Origin: Actinomycetota bacterium
Lineage (GTDB): Bacteria > Actinomycetota > Acidimicrobiia > IMCC26256 > PALSA-610
DNA: 43,647 nucleotides
Reading direction: 5' to 3'
Assembly (NCBI GenBank): GCA_003134555.1
Contig: PLBO01000052.1
Location: forward strand, 1-43,647
Positions 11,890 to 42,099 of this stretch are shown piece after piece. Numbering within the stretch: the first letter of the stretch is position 1; every line of letters begins with the position of its first letter. Made by a program: the position numbers and the translations under genes. The notes beneath the pieces were generated by a model. That model was not told the origin of the DNA. It worked only from the letters and a program-made list of their open reading frames with translations, and ran no database searches.

Positions 11890-12716
11890 GGCTCTGTTGC
11901 ATTGGGCGATGCGGGTGTCTGGGGGCGACAGTGGTGGGATGCTCCGATCTCATGGTGGTCTGGTACCTGTCGTCCCGAGTTCTGCGTTCGAGGGCTTTCG
12001 GTTCCCTCCCGAGATCATCGTCCTCGCCGTGCGCTGGTACCTGCGGTACGGGCTCTCGTACCACGATGTCGAGGAACTCCTCACCGAGCGCGGGATTGAG
12101 GTCGATCACGTCACGGTGTACCGGTGGGTGCAACGCTTCACGCCGCTCCTCGCGGATGCGGCCCGGCCGTGCCGCCACGCGGTCGGTGACCGCTGGTTCG
12201 TCGATGAGACCTACGTGAAGGTCGCCGGCCGGTGGCGATACGTCTACCGTGCGATCGATCAGTACGGCCAGATCATCGACGTCTACGTTTCGGACCGACG
12301 CGATATCCGGGCGGCGCGACGGTTCTTCATGACGGCGCTCGGCGCCCACGACGAACCGACGGAGGTGGTGACCGACCGGGCCTGGACGTTACGGGCTGTG
12401 ATCGATGAGCTCATCCCGGGCGCGTTCCACAACACCGAGCAGTACGCCAACAATCGGATCGAAACCGATCATGGCTGGCTCAAGGCACGGCTCCGTCCGA
12501 TGCGTGGCCTCAAACGCGACCACACCGCACGCGTGATCATTCGCGGTCACGCGCTGATGTAGAACATTCGGCGCGGCCATTACCAACTCGGCATCGATGC
12601 GCGCGCCCATCGGCGTGTCGCGGCCGCGTTCACCGAACTTGCCCGCACCATCTGAAACGGACCCAGACCGCAGGCGCGGTCTCGCGCGGCCAGGACCGAC
12701 CCAATGCAACAGAGCC
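11890..12716 (+). mobile_element. Complete IS6-family element (transposase disabled)
   Basis: An 827-bp element with 17-bp perfect terminal inverted repeats, GGCTCTGTTGCATTGGG at 11890-11906 and its complement at 12700-12716. The size is normal for IS6-type elements. The 8 bp on each side do not match, as expected if recombination with neighbouring copies has removed the target duplication. The transposase carries an internal stop. Confidence 0.88.
11939..12655 (+). pseudogene. IS6-family transposase with in-frame TAG
   Basis: The coding frame is intact from MLRSHGGLVPVVPSSAF through the DDE triad: GDRWFVDETY (first Asp), VVTDRA (second Asp) and ETDHGWLKARL (Glu with its following basic residues). 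A TAG at 12560-12562 interrupts it after GHALM, where the copy at 14149 reads GHAFIRNLRRGHYDLG. Downstream, the frame continues with NIRRGHYQLG to AFTELARTI and TGA at 12653-12655. The stop removes 31 residues after the catalytic core, so some activity cannot be excluded. ATG 11939 matches the start used in the sister copies; the in-frame ATG at 11897 lies almost at the terminal repeat. Confidence 0.82.
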
Positions 12717-14086: not shown

Positions 14087-14912
14087 GGCACTGTTGCGTT
14101 GAGCGTGGATGGCGCCGCGCGTGATCGGGTTGCCCTCTCGTTTCGTCTTCAGATGGTGCGTGCGAGCTCGGTGAACGCGGCCGCGACGCGACGACGGGGA
14201 TGAGCATCGACACCGAGGTCGTAATGGCCGCGCCGGAGATTCCGTATGAACGCGTGACCACGAATGATCACGCGGGCGGTTCGGTCACGTTTGAGGCCGC
14301 GCATCGGTCGCAGTCGCGCCTTGAGCCGGCCGTGATCCGCCTCGATCCGATTGTTCGCATACTGCTCGACGTTATGGAACGCCGCAGGGATGAGCTCATC
14401 GATCACTGCTCGTAGCGCAGGAGCCCGGTCGGTTACCACCTCGGTCGGCTCGCCGTGCGCCCGAAGCGACGTGGTGAAGAACCTTCGCGCGGCACCGATG
14501 TCGCGCTTGGATGAAACGTAGACGTCGACGACTTGGCCGTACTGATCGACCGCCCGGTACGCGTAGCGCCAACGGCCCGCGACCTTCACGTACGTCTCGT
14601 CCACGAACCAACGGTCGCCAACCGGATGCCGGCACGGCCAAGCCGTGTCCATGAGTAGCGGCGTGAAGCGCTGAACCCACCGGAACACCGTGACGTTGAT
14701 CGACCTCGATCCCACGCTCGACTAGGAGCTCTTCGACGTCGCGATACGACAGCCCGAACCGCAGATACCAGCGCACCGCGAGGACGATGATCTCCGCAGG
14801 AAACCGGAACCCAGCGAACGCCGAAATCGGGAACACGGGCGTCGAACGACAACGGCGAGATCTCATCCCGCCACCCCCGCCCCGCCCCGCCCCTGCGCCA
14901 ATGCAACAGTCC
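14087..14912 (-). mobile_element. Complete IS6-family element (transposase frameshifted)
   Basis: An 826-bp element in reverse orientation. The ends are GGCACTGTTGCGTTG at 14087 and CAATGCAACAGTCC at 14899-14912; the inverted repeats are imperfect. No flanking 8-bp duplication was found. With the copy at 11890 it brackets the membrane-gene pair at 12923-13971 in inverted orientation. Confidence 0.87.
14149..14866 (-). pseudogene. IS6-family transposase with one-base frameshift
   Basis: Starts at ATG 14866 (MRSRRCRSTPVFPISAF) and reads normally to GIEVDQ. An extra A at about 14700 (GATCAACGTCACG where the intact copies have GATCACGTCACG) throws it out of frame. The remaining part in the next frame, NVTVFRWVQRF to AFTELARTI (stop at 14149), holds all DDE residues: GDRWFVDET, VVTDRA and EADHGRLKARL. 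IS6 transposases are not made by programmed frameshifting, so the copy is probably dead. Confidence 0.82.
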
Positions 14913-16169: not shown

Positions 16170-16883
16170 TTAGAGGCCGTGTACGGCGGGCACGAACCGG
16201 GCCAGATACGAGGTGAGGTGCTGGTAGGTATCGGTGGTGAGCAATAGCCCGAGCCCGACGAGGAGCGCGCCGGCGATGCGTTCCAGTTTCGGTCCGGCGC
16301 GCCGCAGTCGCGCCGCGAGGGCGGGTGACGACGCGAGACCGAGCGCGGCGAGGAGGAAGGGCACGCCGATGCCCGCGGCGTACGCGCTGAGTAACAAGGT
16401 GCCTCGCCCAACGGCCTGGGTTCGGGCGGCGATGGTGAGCGCGGCGGCGAGTAAGGGTCCAACGCACGGGCTCCAACCCGCGCCGAACGCGATGCCGACG
16501 ATGTAGGGGCGGGCGACGCCGGTGACTTTCGGCAGGGTGGGGATGAGGCGGCGTTCGCGGGCGAACGGCCCGCGCAGGATGCCCAGCAAGGCGAGGCCCA
16601 TGACGGTGATGACGATGCCGCCGACGACGCGTACGGTGCTTTGGAATGTCGACAGTGACGAGCCGAGGAGGGCGGCGGTCGCGCCGAGTCCGGCGAATAC
16701 GGTGGTGAACCCGGCGATGAATAACAGGGTTGCGGGTACGGCGCGTGCGGGATCGTGGGCGTCGCCGATCTCGCCGACGATGATGCCGAGGTAGGCGGGC
16801 ACGAGCGGCACGATGCACGGCGCGAGGAAGGAGGCGACCCCGGCGCCGAATAGCGCGACGACTTGGGTCGCGGTGTTGGTCAT
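16170..16883 (-). CDS. ccdA: CcdA-type thiol-disulfide membrane transporter
   Basis: A 237-residue, six-helix protein of the CcdA/DsbD transmembrane family. It passes electrons from cytoplasmic thioredoxin to extracytoplasmic thioredoxin-like proteins, for instance for cytochrome c maturation. The two redox cysteines are in FLAPCIVPLVPAY (Cys23) and GWSPCVGP (Cys140). It is 36 bp downstream of the DipZ-like thioredoxin gene in the same direction. Together the two genes carry the modules that mycobacterial DipZ fuses in one chain, though in reverse order, so they are very likely redox partners. Confidence 0.9.
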   Translation of the reverse strand: MTNTATQVVALFGAGVASFLAPCIVPLVPAYLGIIVGEIGDAHDPARAVPATLLFIAGFTTVFAGLGATAALLGSSLSTFQSTVRVVGGIVITVMGLALLGILRGPFARERRLIPTLPKVTGVARPYIVGIAFGAGWSPCVGPLLAAALTIAARTQAVGRGTLLLSAYAAGIGVPFLLAALGLASSPALAARLRRAGPKLERIAGALLVGLGLLLTTDTYQHLTSYLARFVPAVHGL

Positions 16884-16919: not shown

Positions 16920-18035
16920 TCATCCGAAGGTGAAGTCGTACGCCTCGACGCCGGCTTGGGCGGCAACGACGGTGAGTTGATGGTCCTGCACGCCGGGCGC
17001 GAGTACGAGGCGGTACATGTCGGGCGCGGTGACCGTGACGACGGTCTGGCCGCTCGCGTCGACATGGAGGCTCGCGCCGCGAGACTTCACAGGTATCGGC
17101 TTGCCATCGAGCGCGACGACGACCTCGATCGGCTTGCCGGTCGCGGACGCGAGGACGAGATTCACCGACTGCGCATGCATCGCGAGCACGATCGTCGCGC
17201 CGACCGCCGCGGACGTGACGTTCTCGTTCGCGCCGGTCCAGGCGCCTTCGAGCGCGACGTTGGGTGGCGCGAGCGTTCCGGCCGCCGGATAGACGTGTAT
17301 GCCTGGTCGGGCGCCGAGTTGACCGTGCGCGACGTCGAGGTACGTCTCGGGGTTCACGTTCTGGCCCGATGTGGTCTCTGCTTTCACGTTCCGATCGGCC
17401 CGCGGCGACCCCGCGGCGACCCCGAGCAGCGAGCGCAGCACATTCTCGGTATTGCCGTAGTCGCCCTCACCGAAATGGGTGTAGCGGATGTGACCGCTGC
17501 GGTCGGCGACGTAGTCGGCGGGCCAGTACTGGTTATTGAACGCATTCCAGATCGTCATGTCGTCGTCGAGCGCGACCGGCCAGGTCACGCCTAGCCGCTT
17601 GACCGCGGCTACGACGTTCGCATGCACCTTCTCGAAGTCGAACTCCGGTGAGTGCACGCCGACCACGACGAGCCCATCGCTACGGTAGCGGTCGTACCAC
17701 GCGCGCACATACGGGAACGTCCGCACGCAGTTGATACACGAGTACGTCCAGAAGTCATAGAGCACGACCTTGCCCGTGAGGTCAGACGCAGTGAGCGGCG
17801 CCGCGTTGATCCAACCTTTCGCGGCCAGCGCCGGTGCCGGACCCTTGTCGGGAAGATGCGACGTGTCCACCGGACCGGAAATCGACGACGGGTTCGATCC
17901 CGCCGCGACGAGCACGCTCGCCAACGCAACCGCCCCAATCGCGACCGCAACAATCACATACTTGCCTCGACGCCGAGGTCGCACCGATCCCAACTCGCCC
18001 GACAACGTCGGCTTCCCCACGCGCCCAGGCGCCAC
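16920..18035 (-). CDS. Membrane-anchored TlpA/DipZ-like thioredoxin with C-terminal beta domain
   Basis: A 371-residue protein with one membrane helix at residues about 26-46. A thioredoxin domain at about 65-220 has the active site YSCINCVRTF, Cys100 and Cys103. A C-terminal beta domain of about 130 residues starts near YLDVAHGQLGARPG and matches the carbohydrate-binding-like end of DipZ. It should act outside the membrane, reduced through CcdA encoded downstream. An in-frame extension to 18323 lacks pattern. GTG 18035 is favoured by a TATGCT box just upstream, giving a leaderless transcript; ATG 18134 is an alternative. The Sec-peroxiredoxin gene diverges from it about 245 bp away. Confidence 0.85.
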   Translation of the reverse strand: MAPGRVGKPTLSGELGSVRPRRRGKYVIVAVAIGAVALASVLVAAGSNPSSISGPVDTSHLPDKGPAPALAAKGWINAAPLTASDLTGKVVLYDFWTYSCINCVRTFPYVRAWYDRYRSDGLVVVGVHSPEFDFEKVHANVVAAVKRLGVTWPVALDDDMTIWNAFNNQYWPADYVADRSGHIRYTHFGEGDYGNTENVLRSLLGVAAGSPRADRNVKAETTSGQNVNPETYLDVAHGQLGARPGIHVYPAAGTLAPPNVALEGAWTGANENVTSAAVGATIVLAMHAQSVNLVLASATGKPIEVVVALDGKPIPVKSRGASLHVDASGQTVVTVTAPDMYRLVLAPGVQDHQLTVVAAQAGVEAYDFTFG

Positions 18036-18280
18036 GACCCGAGCATACGAGCCAACCCGACCATTACGACGTCGCGGACCGCCCAACTCCCGAGCGTCGA
18101 GGCCCTTCCCGACAACGACCGCGGCGATGTCCATCGCGCCCCGCGAGCACGGACGCGATGCATCGTGACCTCTACAGCCGATACCGTCACCACCGCGCCG
18201 CGTCTGCCGGTCGGCGCAGTTGGCGGGTTCCTTCGGCGCCCCTATTCGAGGATCGTCGGGCGACGTAGTGTCATCAACCG

Positions 18281-18763
18281 ATGGCGACGCACAGCACGAC
18301 CGCGGCAGTTGGGACCACGGCACCGACCTTCGCGCTTCCCGACGCGACGGGAAACACGGTCGCGCTGGGTGCTCTCGTCGCTCGCGGACCGGTCGTGTTG
18401 GTGTTCTTGCGCGGGTTCGCGTGACCGTTCTGCCGCCGGCATCTCGCGCAGTTGCGCGACGACCACGCCCAGTTCACTGACGCCGGAGCCTCGGTGGTCG
18501 CGGTCGCGCCGGAACCGACGGCAGCGGTCGAGCGGTACGTCAGCCAGCATCCGGTGCCGTACCCGATCCTCTCCGACGCCGACCACACCGCCTTCGACGC
18601 CTACGACGTCGCGAGCCGTGCGATGAGCCTCGGGCAACGTCCCGCCCTGTTCGTTATCGACGGGAGCGGCGTCGTGCGGTTCGACTCGGTTGGCACGCAG
18701 CAATGGCAAATCCCCACCAACCAGCAAGTCCTCAAGGTGCTCGCCACCCTCACCGGACACTGA
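18281..18763 (+). CDS. Peroxiredoxin-like protein with TGA-encoded selenocysteine (candidate selenoprotein)
   Basis: An AhpC/TSA-type redoxin of 160 residues if TGA is read through. The frame is continuous from ATG 18281 (VGTTAPTFALPDATGNTVAL) through a single in-frame TGA at 18422-18424 to the stop at 18763. The TGA is codon 48 in LVFLRGFA-U-PFCRRHL. Relatives have Cys there (family pattern RGFWCPFCRR), so TGA replaces exactly the peroxidatic Cys, and Cys51 gives a U-x-x-C motif. Downstream homology is fully kept: VVAVAPEPTAAVERYV, then VPYPILSD. A SECIS-like hairpin follows at 18444-18459. Expected function is peroxide or thiol reduction. It diverges from the thioredoxin/CcdA genes. The alternative is a TGC-to-TGA nonsense mutation; decisive would be selA/selB/selC/selD elsewhere in the genome. 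Confidence 0.75.
18444..18459 (+). promoter_or_regulatory. Candidate bacterial SECIS hairpin
   Basis: The sequence TCGCGC-AGTT-GCGCGA forms a 6-bp perfect stem with a 4-nt loop. The loop begins 25 nt after the TGA and its second base is G. Bacterial SECIS elements are typically short hairpins just after UGA, with a small apical loop carrying G in its first two positions about 16-37 nt downstream. A competing hairpin (18430-18451) has a loop starting only 12 nt away. It lies within the coding region. Confidence 0.5.
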
Positions 18764-27473: not shown

Positions 27474-28920
27474 ATGGTGCGACGGCTGTCGGGAACTGAC
27501 TCGCTCTTCTTCGCCGGTGAGACCCCCGCGTGGCACCAGCACGTCGCCGGGCTGACGATCCTCGATCCGCGCGACGCGCCCGGCTTCGGATTCGAGTCTT
27601 TGATGAACACGGTCGGCGAGCGACTCCCGCTCATCCCCAAGCTCACCTGGAAGCTCAAGCCCGTTCCGCTCGGTCTTGATCGAGCGGTTTGGGTCGACGA
27701 CCCCGACTTCGATCTCAGGCGTCACATCCGTCGCATCTGCGTCGCCACGCCGGGCGGCCCGCGCGAAACGGCAGCAGCAATTGCACCGATCCTGAGTACT
27801 CAGCTCGATCGTCGCCATCCGCTGTGGGAGCTGTGGTACGTCGACGGGATGGCGAACGATCGCGCCGGAGTTGTGATGAAGTTCCACCACTGCTTGCTCG
27901 ACGGCGCCGCCGGCAGCCGTGCTCGCGACACTGCTGCTCGACCTCGAACCGTTTCCGTCGCCGCGCGCCGCTACCGCGATGCCGACGGCGGAGCCGCCAC
28001 CGAGCGACCTGCGGCTGCTGCTTGACAGCGTCGTACCGGTCGCGACGACGCCACTGCGCGCGGTCCGCTATGCCGGGCGGCTCGCGCGTCGTGGAATCGA
28101 TCTTGGTCGGTACGTCCTGTCCCCTCGTCCGAAGCCCGATCTGGCTGCGATGTTGCAGGCGCCGAACACGTCGTTCAACGGTGTCATCGGCCCCCGGCGC
28201 GCGATCGCGTTCAGCAGCGTGGCGCTCGACGACGTGAAGACGCTACGTCGACACTTCGACGCGAAGGTGAATGACATCGTGCTCGCGCTCTGCTCGGGTG
28301 CGCTGCGCTCGTACCTGGAAGAACGTAATGAGCTGCCGGCACAATCGATTACCGCCGGCATCCCGGTCTCGATTCGCGCCGAGGGCGATACTGCGCTCGA
28401 CAACCAGCTGTCGTACATCGCCGTTCCGCTCGCGACCGACGTCGCTGACGCGGCCGAACGCGTGCACACGATCTGGCGGCACACGCGCGCCGCCAAGGAG
28501 GTGAACGAGGTGCTGCGAGAGCACCCGGTCGGCTCGATCGCCGACACGGCGCCGCCGTTCGTGATCGGCGGGTTGCTCCGCGTCGCGTACGAGACCCACC
28601 TGCTGTCCTACGTGCCGGGAATGATGAACACGATCGTCTCGAACGTGCCGGGCCCGCCTGTGCCGCTCTACCTGGCGGGCGCGCGTCTGACGGGCATCTT
28701 CTCGGCGAGCGTGCTGCTCGACCACATGGGACTCAACATCACGTTGTTCACCTTCCGGGATCGCGTCGACTTCGGTGTACATGTCGACCCCGACCTCGTA
28801 TCCGACCCCTGGGAAATCGCCGACGCGATCCCGGCCGCGCTCGCCGAGCTGATGGCTAGCTGCGAACTGGGTGCGCCCAGACCGGTCGAGGACGCGTTCG
28901 AGATCGCGTCACGCGTCTGA
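27474..28920 (+). pseudogene. WS/DGAT acyltransferase, frameshifted after the active site
   Basis: A wax ester synthase/diacylglycerol acyltransferase gene split by one base. Frame one (from 27474) has RRLSGTDSLFFAGETPAWHQ, the PLWELW block and the active site KFHHCLLDGAAG (HHxxxDG). At about 27915 the frame shifts: the expected continuation AVLATLLLDLEPFPS is in the next frame, followed by KVNDIVLALCSGALRSYL, SNVPGPPVPLYLAGARL and the C-terminus at 28920. Joined, it would be about 480 residues, the family's normal length. The break lies in a GCCGCCGG run where sequencing slippage is common, so it may be an assembly error. It faces the intact paralogue at 28957 and diverges from the hydrolase at 26057. 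Confidence 0.8.
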
Positions 28921-28956: not shown

Positions 28957-30369
28957 TCAGGCCGGCTCGGCCCCCAGTTGGCGGGCTTCGGCTGCCGCAA
29001 CGAGCTCGTCGAGGCTGGTGCGCAACGCGCCGGCGAGCTCCCAGATGTCGGGAGCGTGCTCACGACAAGCCATCACCGCGACCGCCATCTCCCCGGCGTA
29101 GCTCCATCCTGTGAAGTTGACTCCGATCCCTTCGACGAGTGGACCCATCGAGATCATGTGCACGAGTCGCGCGCCGTGTCGGTACAGCTTCACTGCGGGG
29201 CCGGGCACGCTCGAAACGATGGCGTTGTAGCTCGGCCGGCCGATGAACGGACGCGCCATCTTCGGCACGCCGAGTGTGACGACCCGGAACAGCCGCCAAT
29301 ATTCGGCCCACGAGTGCTGCAGTTCCGAATCGGTTGCCTTCATCTCGGCACGCGCCGCGAGCGTGCTGCGCGTAATCAGCTGCAGACGCGTAGCCGGATC
29401 CTGCACGTCGGTCGCCATTGTCACGAACCAGGTTGCGACGCGATTGCCCCACGTTCGCTCCTCGTCCGGTTTCCGGATCGAGACGGGCACCGCCGCGGTA
29501 AGTGACTCGTCCGGCAGTTCGCCGTGAGCCTGAAGATATGTGCGCAACGCACCGGCTGCCATCGCGAGCAGCACGTCGTTCACGCCCGCGCCGAACGCGT
29601 GGCTCACCTTCTTGACCTCCGCCAGATCGAAGATCTCGTATGCGAACCAGCGATGCGGCGTGAGTGGCTCGTCGAAGCGAGTGTGTGGGCCGGCGAAGGG
29701 CTTCGTCGTCGAATCACTCCGGCCGCGCGAGTGCTTACGACCTCGTCGCGCCGCGCGCGCGGTGCGGAACAGCAGGAAGGGAAGCGCCACCGTCATGCGC
29801 AATGCGTCCGCGAGCCCGAGTCCGAGGAGGCGCCACCAACCGGGCGCGATCTCGGCCTCGAGTGCGCCGCCGGCTCCCATCGGCGTGTGATCGGGCCGTT
29901 CCGCGAACGCCTCTGCGAGCAATCGTTCGCTCGCCATGCCGTCGGCGAGTGAATGGTGCACTTTGGTGACGTAGGCGACCTGGCCGTCGGCCATGCCTTC
30001 GACGAACCACACCTGCCACAGCGGTCGGTCGCGCTCGAGTCCGACGCTCGCGATCCTCGAGATCACCTCCGAGAACTCGCGAGGCCCGCCGGGCGCCAAC
30101 ATTGCGACGCGCTGTACGTGATAGTCGAGATCGAGATCGGGCGCGTCGATCCAGTACGGATGGCCGAGGTCGAATGGCACTCGCACGAGTCGCCAGCGGA
30201 ATGGTTCGAGCAGCGGGAGCGCCTCGCTGATCTGTTCGCGCAACGCGTCGTAGGTGACCGGCATGTCGGCGCCCGCGGGATCGACGACGGCGATCTTCAG
30301 CGTGTGTTGATGCCGGGCGCGGTTCTCGTTGAAGATGAACAGGCTGTCGGCGCCCGCGAGACGCTGCAT
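28957..30369 (-). CDS. WS/DGAT-family acyltransferase (wax ester/triacylglycerol synthesis)
   Basis: A 470-residue bifunctional acyltransferase that transfers acyl groups from acyl-CoA to diacylglycerol or fatty alcohol, making storage lipids at the membrane. The active site HHSLADG is in VTKVHHSLADGMASE; other family blocks are PLWQVWFVEG, GVNDVLLAMAAGALRTYL and VSSVPGPAVKLY. The ATG at 30369 follows the acyl-CoA synthetase stop by 10 bp, with a GAGG upstream; the longer frame to 30504 is discarded. Co-transcription with the synthetase that makes its acyl-CoA substrate is very likely. Confidence 0.9.
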   Translation of the reverse strand: MQRLAGADSLFIFNENRARHQHTLKIAVVDPAGADMPVTYDALREQISEALPLLEPFRWRLVRVPFDLGHPYWIDAPDLDLDYHVQRVAMLAPGGPREFSEVISRIASVGLERDRPLWQVWFVEGMADGQVAYVTKVHHSLADGMASERLLAEAFAERPDHTPMGAGGALEAEIAPGWWRLLGLGLADALRMTVALPFLLFRTARAARRGRKHSRGRSDSTTKPFAGPHTRFDEPLTPHRWFAYEIFDLAEVKKVSHAFGAGVNDVLLAMAAGALRTYLQAHGELPDESLTAAVPVSIRKPDEERTWGNRVATWFVTMATDVQDPATRLQLITRSTLAARAEMKATDSELQHSWAEYWRLFRVVTLGVPKMARPFIGRPSYNAIVSSVPGPAVKLYRHGARLVHMISMGPLVEGIGVNFTGWSYAGEMAVAVMACREHAPDIWELAGALRTSLDELVAAAEARQLGAEPA

Positions 30370-30379
30370 GTCCGGAACC

Positions 30380-31990
30380 TCACTCGCCGGATGCAAGCGC
30401 GCGTTCGCGTGCCCATCGGTAGTCGGCCTTGCCGTTCGGGCCCCGTACGACCGCGTCGACGACGCAGAGCTCGCGAGGGAGCTTGTATCCCGCGAGGAAG
30501 CCACGGCAGTGCTCCCGAATCTCGTCGAGCGTTACCGCCGTACCGGGACGCGGCGCCAGCACGACCACGACCTGCTCACCCCACCGTTCGTGCGGCGCCC
30601 CCACCACCACCGCGTCCCACACGCTCGGGTGGTTCTTCACGATCGCTTCGACCTCTTCCGGGTACACCTTCTCGCCGCCGGTGTTGATGCTCATCGAGCC
30701 GCGCCCCAGCAACACGATCGTGCCGTCGGCGTCGACCGTGGCGGCATCGCCGGTCAGCGCCCAGCGGACGCCGTCGGCTTGCACGAAGGTGGTGGCACTC
30801 TTCGCGGGATCTTTGTAGTAGCCGATCGGTACCCGACCCCGGCGCGCGAGCCGACCGACCACGCCCGAGCCCGGCTCGATCGGCCGGAGGTCATCATCGA
30901 GGACCGCGCAATGATCGTCGAGCGTGAAGCGCGTGCCCTCCTCAACCTCCGCGCCCGGCATCCGCGCACGCGATCCGCTGACTCCGGTCTCCGTCGAGCC
31001 GAATCCGTCGATCGTGATCACGTTGGGAAGGAGCGCACCGATCTGGGTCTTGGTCGATGTCGACAGCACCGCGCCTCCCGACGCGAACACGAAAAGGGAC
31101 GACGCGTCATAGCGCGACGGGTCCTCGGCGAATGCGTCGAGCAGAGGTCGGGCCATCGCATCACCCACGAGGGTCAAGATGTTGACGTGCTCCTTGCCGA
31201 CGAGCGTCCATACCGCGTGCGCGTCGAGGCTGCCCGGCGACGTGAGCACGACTGTGCCACCGCCGTAGAGGATCGAGAAGGCTCCCCACTGCGCGCTGAC
31301 GTGCATCAGTGGCGGCAGCAGCAGCATCACCACGCCGGTCGGCAATACGCGTGCCACAAGCTCGTCCGGATGCGAGATCGGTCCTTGCCCGGTTGTGGGG
31401 TCACCGCCGCCCATTGCCGCGAAGAAGATGTCCTCGTGGCGCCACACCACGCCCTTGGGCATGCCGGTCGTGCCGCCCGTGTACGCGATGTACAAGTCGT
31501 CGCCCGAGCGTCCGGTGAAGTCGCGCTCCGCCGACGCGCCCGCGATCAGCTCCTCGTACCTCTCCGAGCCGGTGATCACGTCGTTGCCGCTGTCGTCGTC
31601 GACGACGACTACTGGTCCCGAGATAGGTATGCGGCCGAGCGCGGTCGCGATCCTGCGTGCGAACGCCCGGTGATACACAAGGGCGTAGAGATCGGCGTCG
31701 TCGTAAAGGTGCGCGAGCTCCGACTCCACATACCGATAGTTCACGTTCACCGGAACGGCCCGGAGCTTGTACGCGGCCAGCATCGCCTCGATGTACTCGA
31801 CGCCGTTGTGCAGTTGAAGGCCGACGTGCGTCCCGGGGCCGACGCCACTCGCCGCGAGTGCATTGGCGAGCCGGCTCGCCCGGGCGTCGAGCTGCGCGTA
31901 GGTGCGGCGCACCACCGGCGTCACGATTGCTTCGCGTTCGGGCACGGCATCGGCGACCCGCTCGAAGAGCTCGGACAGGTTGTAGCTCAC
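30380..31990 (-). CDS. Acyl-CoA synthetase (AMP-forming, FadD-like)
   Basis: A 536-residue ANL-superfamily ligase that activates a carboxylic acid as acyl-AMP and then acyl-CoA. Motifs seen are the phosphate loop YIAYTGGTTGMPKGVVWRHE, TIDGFGSTETGVSG, the ALTGDAATVDADG segment and the hinge GRGSMSINTGGEKVYPEEVE. The catalytic Lys near the C-terminus is in VRGPNGKADYRWA. The start is GTG 31990 with GAGGAGG about seven bases upstream. It is the first gene of a pair with the WS/DGAT, suggesting that it feeds storage-lipid synthesis. Chain length cannot be predicted. Confidence 0.92.
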   Translation of the reverse strand: MSYNLSELFERVADAVPEREAIVTPVVRRTYAQLDARASRLANALAASGVGPGTHVGLQLHNGVEYIEAMLAAYKLRAVPVNVNYRYVESELAHLYDDADLYALVYHRAFARRIATALGRIPISGPVVVVDDDSGNDVITGSERYEELIAGASAERDFTGRSGDDLYIAYTGGTTGMPKGVVWRHEDIFFAAMGGGDPTTGQGPISHPDELVARVLPTGVVMLLLPPLMHVSAQWGAFSILYGGGTVVLTSPGSLDAHAVWTLVGKEHVNILTLVGDAMARPLLDAFAEDPSRYDASSLFVFASGGAVLSTSTKTQIGALLPNVITIDGFGSTETGVSGSRARMPGAEVEEGTRFTLDDHCAVLDDDLRPIEPGSGVVGRLARRGRVPIGYYKDPAKSATTFVQADGVRWALTGDAATVDADGTIVLLGRGSMSINTGGEKVYPEEVEAIVKNHPSVWDAVVVGAPHERWGEQVVVVLAPRPGTAVTLDEIREHCRGFLAGYKLPRELCVVDAVVRGPNGKADYRWARERALASGE

Positions 31991-40689: not shown

Positions 40690-42099
40690 ATGCGAAAAGC
40701 AGGGGGCATCGATAGTACGTTCCTCGCGCTGGAGACGCACGATCATCCGCTCCATGTGATGGCAGTGTTGATACTCGACGCGACGACCGTCCCCGGCGGC
40801 TACTCGTTCGAGGGTCTGATGGATTTCGCCGCCGATCGGTTGGGCGGGATCCCGCCGTTCCGAAAGAAGCTCGTTCCCGTACCGTTCGGTGTCGGACGTC
40901 CGCGTTGGGTCGACGTCGAGGTCGACCTGAACGATCACCTGCACCGGGTGATCTTCGACGGAGGCGGTCTCCCTGAACTCGCACGCTTCGTCGCCGACCT
41001 CGAGCCCGTACCCCTGGACCGAGACCGCCCGCTTTGGAGCATGTACGCGGTCGAAGGGCTCGACCACGACACGGTCGCGGTGGTCGCGAAGGTGCACCAC
41101 GCGCTGATGGACGGCGTCGGCGGTATGCAGTTCATGGCGAGCATGTTCTCGCTCACGCCGACGCCGGAGCCGGTCGTACTCATCGGTGACGACGAAGAGC
41201 GGACTCCTCCACCGTGGGAGCGGCTCCTGCGCGCGGTGCCCGAGATCGCGACCGCGCCGCTGCGCGTGGCCCGTGCGCTCGTGTCGTCGACTCGAGCGGT
41301 GCGGCACGTGCGCGACGAGTTCGGTGCCGACGAGACCCTTGCGCTTCCTGCGTCGGCACCGCACATGCGCTGGAACGATCCCCTCGGTCCTGGCCGAGCG
41401 ATCGCGTTCGCTTCCCTTCCTCTGCACGACGTCAAAGTCGTCGGCCGGGCAGCCGGCGCGACCGTCAACGACGTCGTGCTCGGCGTGCTCGGTGGCGCTG
41501 CCCGGTCGTATCTCGAAGCGCGCGGCGAGCTCCCCGATCGCGCACTCGTCGCCGCAGTCCCCGTGTCGGTCCGCGGGCCCAACGAAGACGTGAACGAGGT
41601 CGCCAACGCGGTAAGTCTCATGTTCACGTCCCTCGGTACCAACATCGCCGATCCCCTCGCCCGGATCGAGGCCGTGCACTCAAGCGCGCACGGCGCCAAG
41701 CACCTGCAAGGTGCGATCGGCCCCGACGCGTTCCTGCAGTGGCTCGAGACGCCGAGTCCGTTCGTCATCGCGGCGGCCGCGCGCCTGTACGTCGGGCTCC
41801 ACCTCGCTTCCCGAACGCCCGCGATCATGAACCTGTTGGTCTCGAACGTGCCCGGGCCGCCGGTCACGCTCTTCTTCGGCGGCGCGCGCCTGCTCGCGCT
41901 CTACCCCCTCGGCCCGATATACGATGGCGTCGGTCTCAACATCACCGTTGTGAGCAGCGCCGACACCATCGGCTTTGGGTTCGTCACATGCCCTGACTTG
42001 ATATCCGACGTCGATGATCTCGCGGCCGCCGTCACCGACGAGTTCACCAAACTCCGCCGCGCAGTCGAAACTGCCGGCACGGGGGAGCCCGTCTACTGA
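40690..42099 (+). CDS. WS/DGAT-family acyltransferase
   Basis: A 469-residue intact paralogue of the acyltransferases at 27474 and 28957. Motifs are GIDSTFLALETHDHPLHVMA, RPLWSMYAVEG, the active site VAKVHHALMDGVGG (HHxxxDG), TVNDVVLGVLGGAARSYLEA and LVSNVPGPPVTLFFGGARL. The ATG at 40690 follows GAGGGG. It diverges from the SDR gene across about 228 bp. Three copies of this family in 15 kb suggest active neutral-lipid storage. Confidence 0.92.
   Translation: MRKAGGIDSTFLALETHDHPLHVMAVLILDATTVPGGYSFEGLMDFAADRLGGIPPFRKKLVPVPFGVGRPRWVDVEVDLNDHLHRVIFDGGGLPELARFVADLEPVPLDRDRPLWSMYAVEGLDHDTVAVVAKVHHALMDGVGGMQFMASMFSLTPTPEPVVLIGDDEERTPPPWERLLRAVPEIATAPLRVARALVSSTRAVRHVRDEFGADETLALPASAPHMRWNDPLGPGRAIAFASLPLHDVKVVGRAAGATVNDVVLGVLGGAARSYLEARGELPDRALVAAVPVSVRGPNEDVNEVANAVSLMFTSLGTNIADPLARIEAVHSSAHGAKHLQGAIGPDAFLQWLETPSPFVIAAAARLYVGLHLASRTPAIMNLLVSNVPGPPVTLFFGGARLLALYPLGPIYDGVGLNITVVSSADTIGFGFVTCPDLISDVDDLAAAVTDEFTKLRRAVETAGTGEPVY

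Follow-up and report, generated by a model that had tools for sequence, protein, structure and literature searches.

The in-frame UGA at codon 48 of a peroxiredoxin-like gene in an Actinomycetota genome is almost certainly decoded as selenocysteine (Sec), so that the gene would encode a selenoprotein; this high confidence, founded on comparative sequence analysis, concerns Sec decoding and is separate from the exact reaction, for which the catalytic cycle proposed below derives from fold and motif. The gene occupies positions 18281..18763 on the + strand of the window (the whole 43,647-nucleotide stretch of DNA analyzed), running from an ATG at 18281 to a terminal TGA stop at 18761-18763. Its sequence and translation contain one internal in-frame TGA, at 18422..18424 (+), in the context FLRGFA-U-PFCRR (FLRGFA-U-PFCRRHLAQLRDD). 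The 160-residue read-through product, counting Sec48, matches the AhpC/TSA family (Pfam PF00578; E 1.1e-27) over most of its length (residues 10-134), and its score of 96.9 bits lies above the curated cut-off of 26. The preliminary description of a TGA interrupting an otherwise intact 160-residue AhpC/TSA frame was therefore exact, and its observation that homology runs on past the TGA holds as well: on either side of the TGA region, substitutions favor third codon positions. The product is apparently cytosolic, with no signal peptide evident by eye.

The same TGA recurs among relatives. Within the order of the source genome, nine further genomes carry orthologues (54-69% identity) with TGA at the same codon, as do an Actinobacteria MAG (L057, 58% identity) and a Chloroflexi MAG (L058, 47%), which excludes chance. 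All 11 close orthologues (about 48-70% identity) thus have TGA at codon 48 and none has Cys there; in the 12-row alignment of these sequences with the window gene, residue 48 is TGA-encoded in 12/12 and Cys51 (TGC, 18431..18433, +), the partner of Sec48, is invariant. A profile search of a 396-genome sample of the phylum added 18 further matches: 15 were of the U-x-x type, all with TGA, while the three without TGA were ordinary TxxC PrxQ-type peroxiredoxins. Since a TGA lies one base from a Cys codon, the window by itself cannot discriminate between a Sec codon and a nonsense mutation in a pseudogene or a miscalled Cys codon. However, the TGA is shared by genomes that were assembled independently and belong to several families, and also by Chloroflexi/Thermomicrobia, purifying selection is apparent on both of its sides, and a hairpin downstream is conserved, making mutation or sequencing error extremely improbable.

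Cys-containing homologues (CPFC) occur at much lower similarity: one in a Chloroflexi MAG (L059, FACPFC, FACPFCRQHMARL) and another in Rhizobium (L104, LHCPFCRRQ). The exchange of Cys and Sec that the preliminary description had proposed looking for in homologues is therefore seen, at the same position, and the gene shows the conserved in-frame UGA at a redox-active position, with Cys in homologues, that characterizes bacterial selenoproteins. These homologues also bear on whether the TGA could be read as Trp or another residue, through a code change or unspecific read-through, for which we found no support: they have Cys rather than Trp at position 48. Furthermore, TGA otherwise acts as a stop, ending 18 of the 26 long genes of the window and the Sec gene itself; the tRNA-Trp found in the genome has the anticodon CCA, and the UCA tRNA found is tRNA-Sec. 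Such a reading has next to no probability. Code reassignment and a pseudogene were both rejected on these grounds, the latter being contradicted by the conserved TGA.

The source genome assembly (4.63 Mb in 154 contigs, about 98% complete, 2.3% contamination) contains selA, selB, selD, and a tRNA-Sec gene, the four components by which the preliminary description had suggested its proposal be judged and which are expected in the genome of a bacterial selenoprotein gene. The tRNA-Sec gene (C84:74241-74332; 70 bits) has the anticodon UCA, selA and selB are adjacent with overlapping ends on one contig (about C84:96834-99856; SelA 437 bits, SelB 312 bits on TIGR00475), and selD lies at C136:16358-17287 (404 bits). 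SelB carries the C-terminal winged-helix domain PF09107, which in characterized SelB proteins binds SECIS hairpins. Contig C20 of the same assembly (G000), a 4.3-kb contig with unread bases, contains at positions 1-2795 a second, divergent selA-selB pair (L019), which may be either a contaminant, given the assembly's 2.3% contamination, or a real second copy. Across the order, selA is present in 38/58 genomes, pointing to Sec decoding in use within this little-cultured actinobacterial lineage. It was found in 9/10 genomes carrying the gene and 29/48 non-carriers, a co-occurrence that is only suggestive; the sole carrier lacking selA (G019) is a 70% complete genome.

A candidate SECIS hairpin, with stem UCGCGC/GCGCGA, lies within the coding sequence at 18444..18459 (+), its apical loop AGUU at 18450-18453 placing 25 nt between UGA and loop. 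RNAalifold recovered this hairpin unprompted. All pairs of the 6-bp stem form in 12/12 genes and two covary: three genes have U-G or U-A in place of G-C, and one has G-C in place of C-G; the covariation score was reached by 0/500 shuffles, and shifting the pairing partner abolished the signal. In a 21-gene set that adds distant members, the Thermomicrobium roseum homologue, and five SelL-like genes, 96% of pairs form and the covariation result is upheld. The DNA 3' of the TGA is also more conserved than the protein demands: Leu58 is encoded by TTG in 12/12 genes, whereas about 5% of the other Leu codons in these genes are TTG, and the commonest codon has an average share of 0.91 across codons 49-61 versus 0.71 elsewhere (Mann-Whitney p 0.001, a guide only because the rows are related). 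This codon constraint is explained by the hairpin. The published bSECIS model calls for a loop of 3-9 nt with G in its first two positions, a stem of 4-16 bp, a spacing of 16-37 nt, and MFE <= -7.5 (PMC13188914), and the hairpin agrees with it in loop size, loop G, 25-nt spacing, and energy (-10.7 kcal/mol). Since the 54-nt region does not fold at a lower energy than its shuffles (z 0.38), the case for the hairpin comes from covariation and codon constraint rather than from stability. An Rfam scan of the gene region returned no family match. The SECIS search recommended in the preliminary description thus yielded a covarying hairpin, and, together with the machinery, the conserved TGA, and the Cys/Sec exchange, it supports the original proposal that the TGA encodes Sec48: a complex of SelB, GTP, and Sec-tRNA(Sec) would be recruited to the hairpin 25 nt downstream, and the UGA would be read as Sec.

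The placement of Sec48 in the active site depends on the family used for comparison. In a phmmer alignment with M. tuberculosis BcpB, Sec48 pairs with the Thr of TxxC and Cys51 with the peroxidatic-position Cys, so by this alignment Sec lies outside the classical peroxidatic position; aligned with a ResA, Sec48 corresponds to the first, attacking Cys of CxxC and Cys51 to the second. The preliminary claim that the TGA sits exactly at the catalytic Cys is thus right for CxxC-type homologues, but replacement of the classical peroxidatic Cys is not supported. In place of the classical PxxxT/SxxC motif the gene has R44-x3-U48-x2-C51, in which P and T are lost and the peroxidatic-position Cys is retained. 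An AlphaFold (AF2) model (pLDDT 85.7) has residues 49-60 helical, with Sec48 immediately before the helix, and the nearest solved structures to it are AhpE, Bcp, PrxQ, and ResA. Most likely, the Sec48 selenolate would attack a peroxide or disulfide, Cys51 would resolve the resulting intermediate via a selenylsulfide, and the enzyme would be regenerated by cellular thiols or thioredoxin.

Whether the product would act as a peroxidase or a thiol-disulfide oxidoreductase is a roughly even choice on the sequence and structural model. That Sec is inserted into a thioredoxin/ResA-like thiol-disulfide oxidoreductase, and not a peroxidase, is a serious possibility falling slightly short of an even chance. 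It is favored by the match of Sec48/Cys51 to the ResA CxxC, by ResA structures among the nearest folds, by the missing P and T of the peroxiredoxin motif PxxxTxxC (R44 and Sec48 here), and by the designation of such UxxC proteins in the literature as Prx-like thiol:disulfide oxidoreductase (PMC13188914, PMC1088965), whereas AhpE, Bcp, and PrxQ are closest in overall sequence and fold.

A search for a conserved operon revealed none, and gene neighborhood was not used as functional evidence. A divergent gene for a redoxin-domain plus Thioredoxin_10 protein (DipZ-like; 16920..18131, -) and one for a CcdA/DsbD-type membrane protein (16170..16883, -) lie next to the gene, but this pair has no homologue beside it in nine relatives, and no other neighbor recurred in more than three of the nine (frames overlapping the gene itself set aside). 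Elsewhere in the window, two transposase-like frames that resemble each other (11897-12562, +; 14149-14715, -) lie about 2 kb apart in opposite orientations and share the stretch VDETYVKVAGRWRY. Two overlapping frames at 27474-28920 (+) look like one wax-ester-synthase/DGAT-like gene that a frameshift near 27919-28025 has split; the window also has full-length frames similar to it, at 28957-30504 (-) and 40690-42099 (+).

Related Sec genes occur beyond the window. The same genome has three further AhpC/TSA-fold genes (the L083/L087/L088 set), each with one in-frame TGA: a PrxQ-like TPGU (TPGUT) gene (G000 C6:120945), an ASWUGC gene (C118:19543), and a SelL-like FLRHFGULHC gene (C138:68036) whose hairpin core is identical to that at 18444-18459. 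The phylum also contains a distinct Sec group of the FGRGTWUPHCREYMGH type (L064-L068, L070-L073, L075, L077, L078), which has its own perfectly paired hairpin, GUAUAUG-GGU-CAUAUAC, with two covarying pairs; the partner Cys is absent in L070 (UPNA) and L067 (UPNW). Thermomicrobium roseum DSM 5159 encodes a homologue (35% identity, LLRGLRUPYCRRHLAQLR) with the same hairpin core on a plasmid (L099:1483-1938), where public annotation stops at the TGA and lists a 42-aa hypothetical protein (WP_012643006.1), an example of how automatic annotation cuts such genes off. This cultured organism offers direct access to the protein and to the short shared SECIS. The concept of Sec insertion is unchanged by the present gene. 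Tentatively, and with the balance leaning against it, these genes may define a distinct Prx-like UPFC subfamily, Sec-fixed across actinobacterial and Chloroflexi-type lineages, with a near-invariant SECIS core (CGC-AGUU-GCG) common to the ~45%-identical SelL-like family; this would imply a lineage-wide SelB recognition code forcing Leu58 to be TTG.

A literature search for Acidimicrobiia selenoproteins found none. The gene is a member of an already known type. The Prx-like thiol:disulfide oxidoreductase class is described as PF00578 proteins with UxxC/UxxU (PMC13188914), and a Sargasso Sea study reported UXXC instead of the TXXU of Sec-peroxiredoxins (PMC1088965); the gene product has both the PF00578 domain and the UxxC motif, and therefore belongs to this kind. 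With the Prx-like oxidoreductase selenoproteins (PMC13188914, PMC1794560, PMC1088965) it shares the fold, a first-position Sec in UxxC, and an in-CDS bacterial SECIS, but most of the present clade comes from a single actinobacterial order, with Sec in every close member seen; likeness to the class, whose named example is WP_010940744.1, is drawn by class description. The SelL-related redox protein model NF040769 was the best-scoring NCBIfam model, the hairpin core is identical, and FLRHFGUxxCREHAAQLR resembles FLRGFAUPFCRRHLAQLR of the present gene, yet the gene scores 75.2 bits, under the curated 120-bit cut-off, has UPFC rather than U(L)(L/H)C, and differs in its C-terminal part. Sec peroxiredoxin/PrxQ proteins (TxxU), exemplified in the same genome by the TPGU gene on C6, have the same fold but Sec at the peroxidatic position, while here Sec precedes that position by three residues, taking the place of the Thr, and the peroxidatic-position Cys is retained. 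ResA/TlpA-like oxidoreductases are similar in that Sec48-x-x-Cys51 aligns with their CxxC; unlike them, the present protein has no evident membrane anchor or signal sequence and is closer overall to peroxiredoxins.
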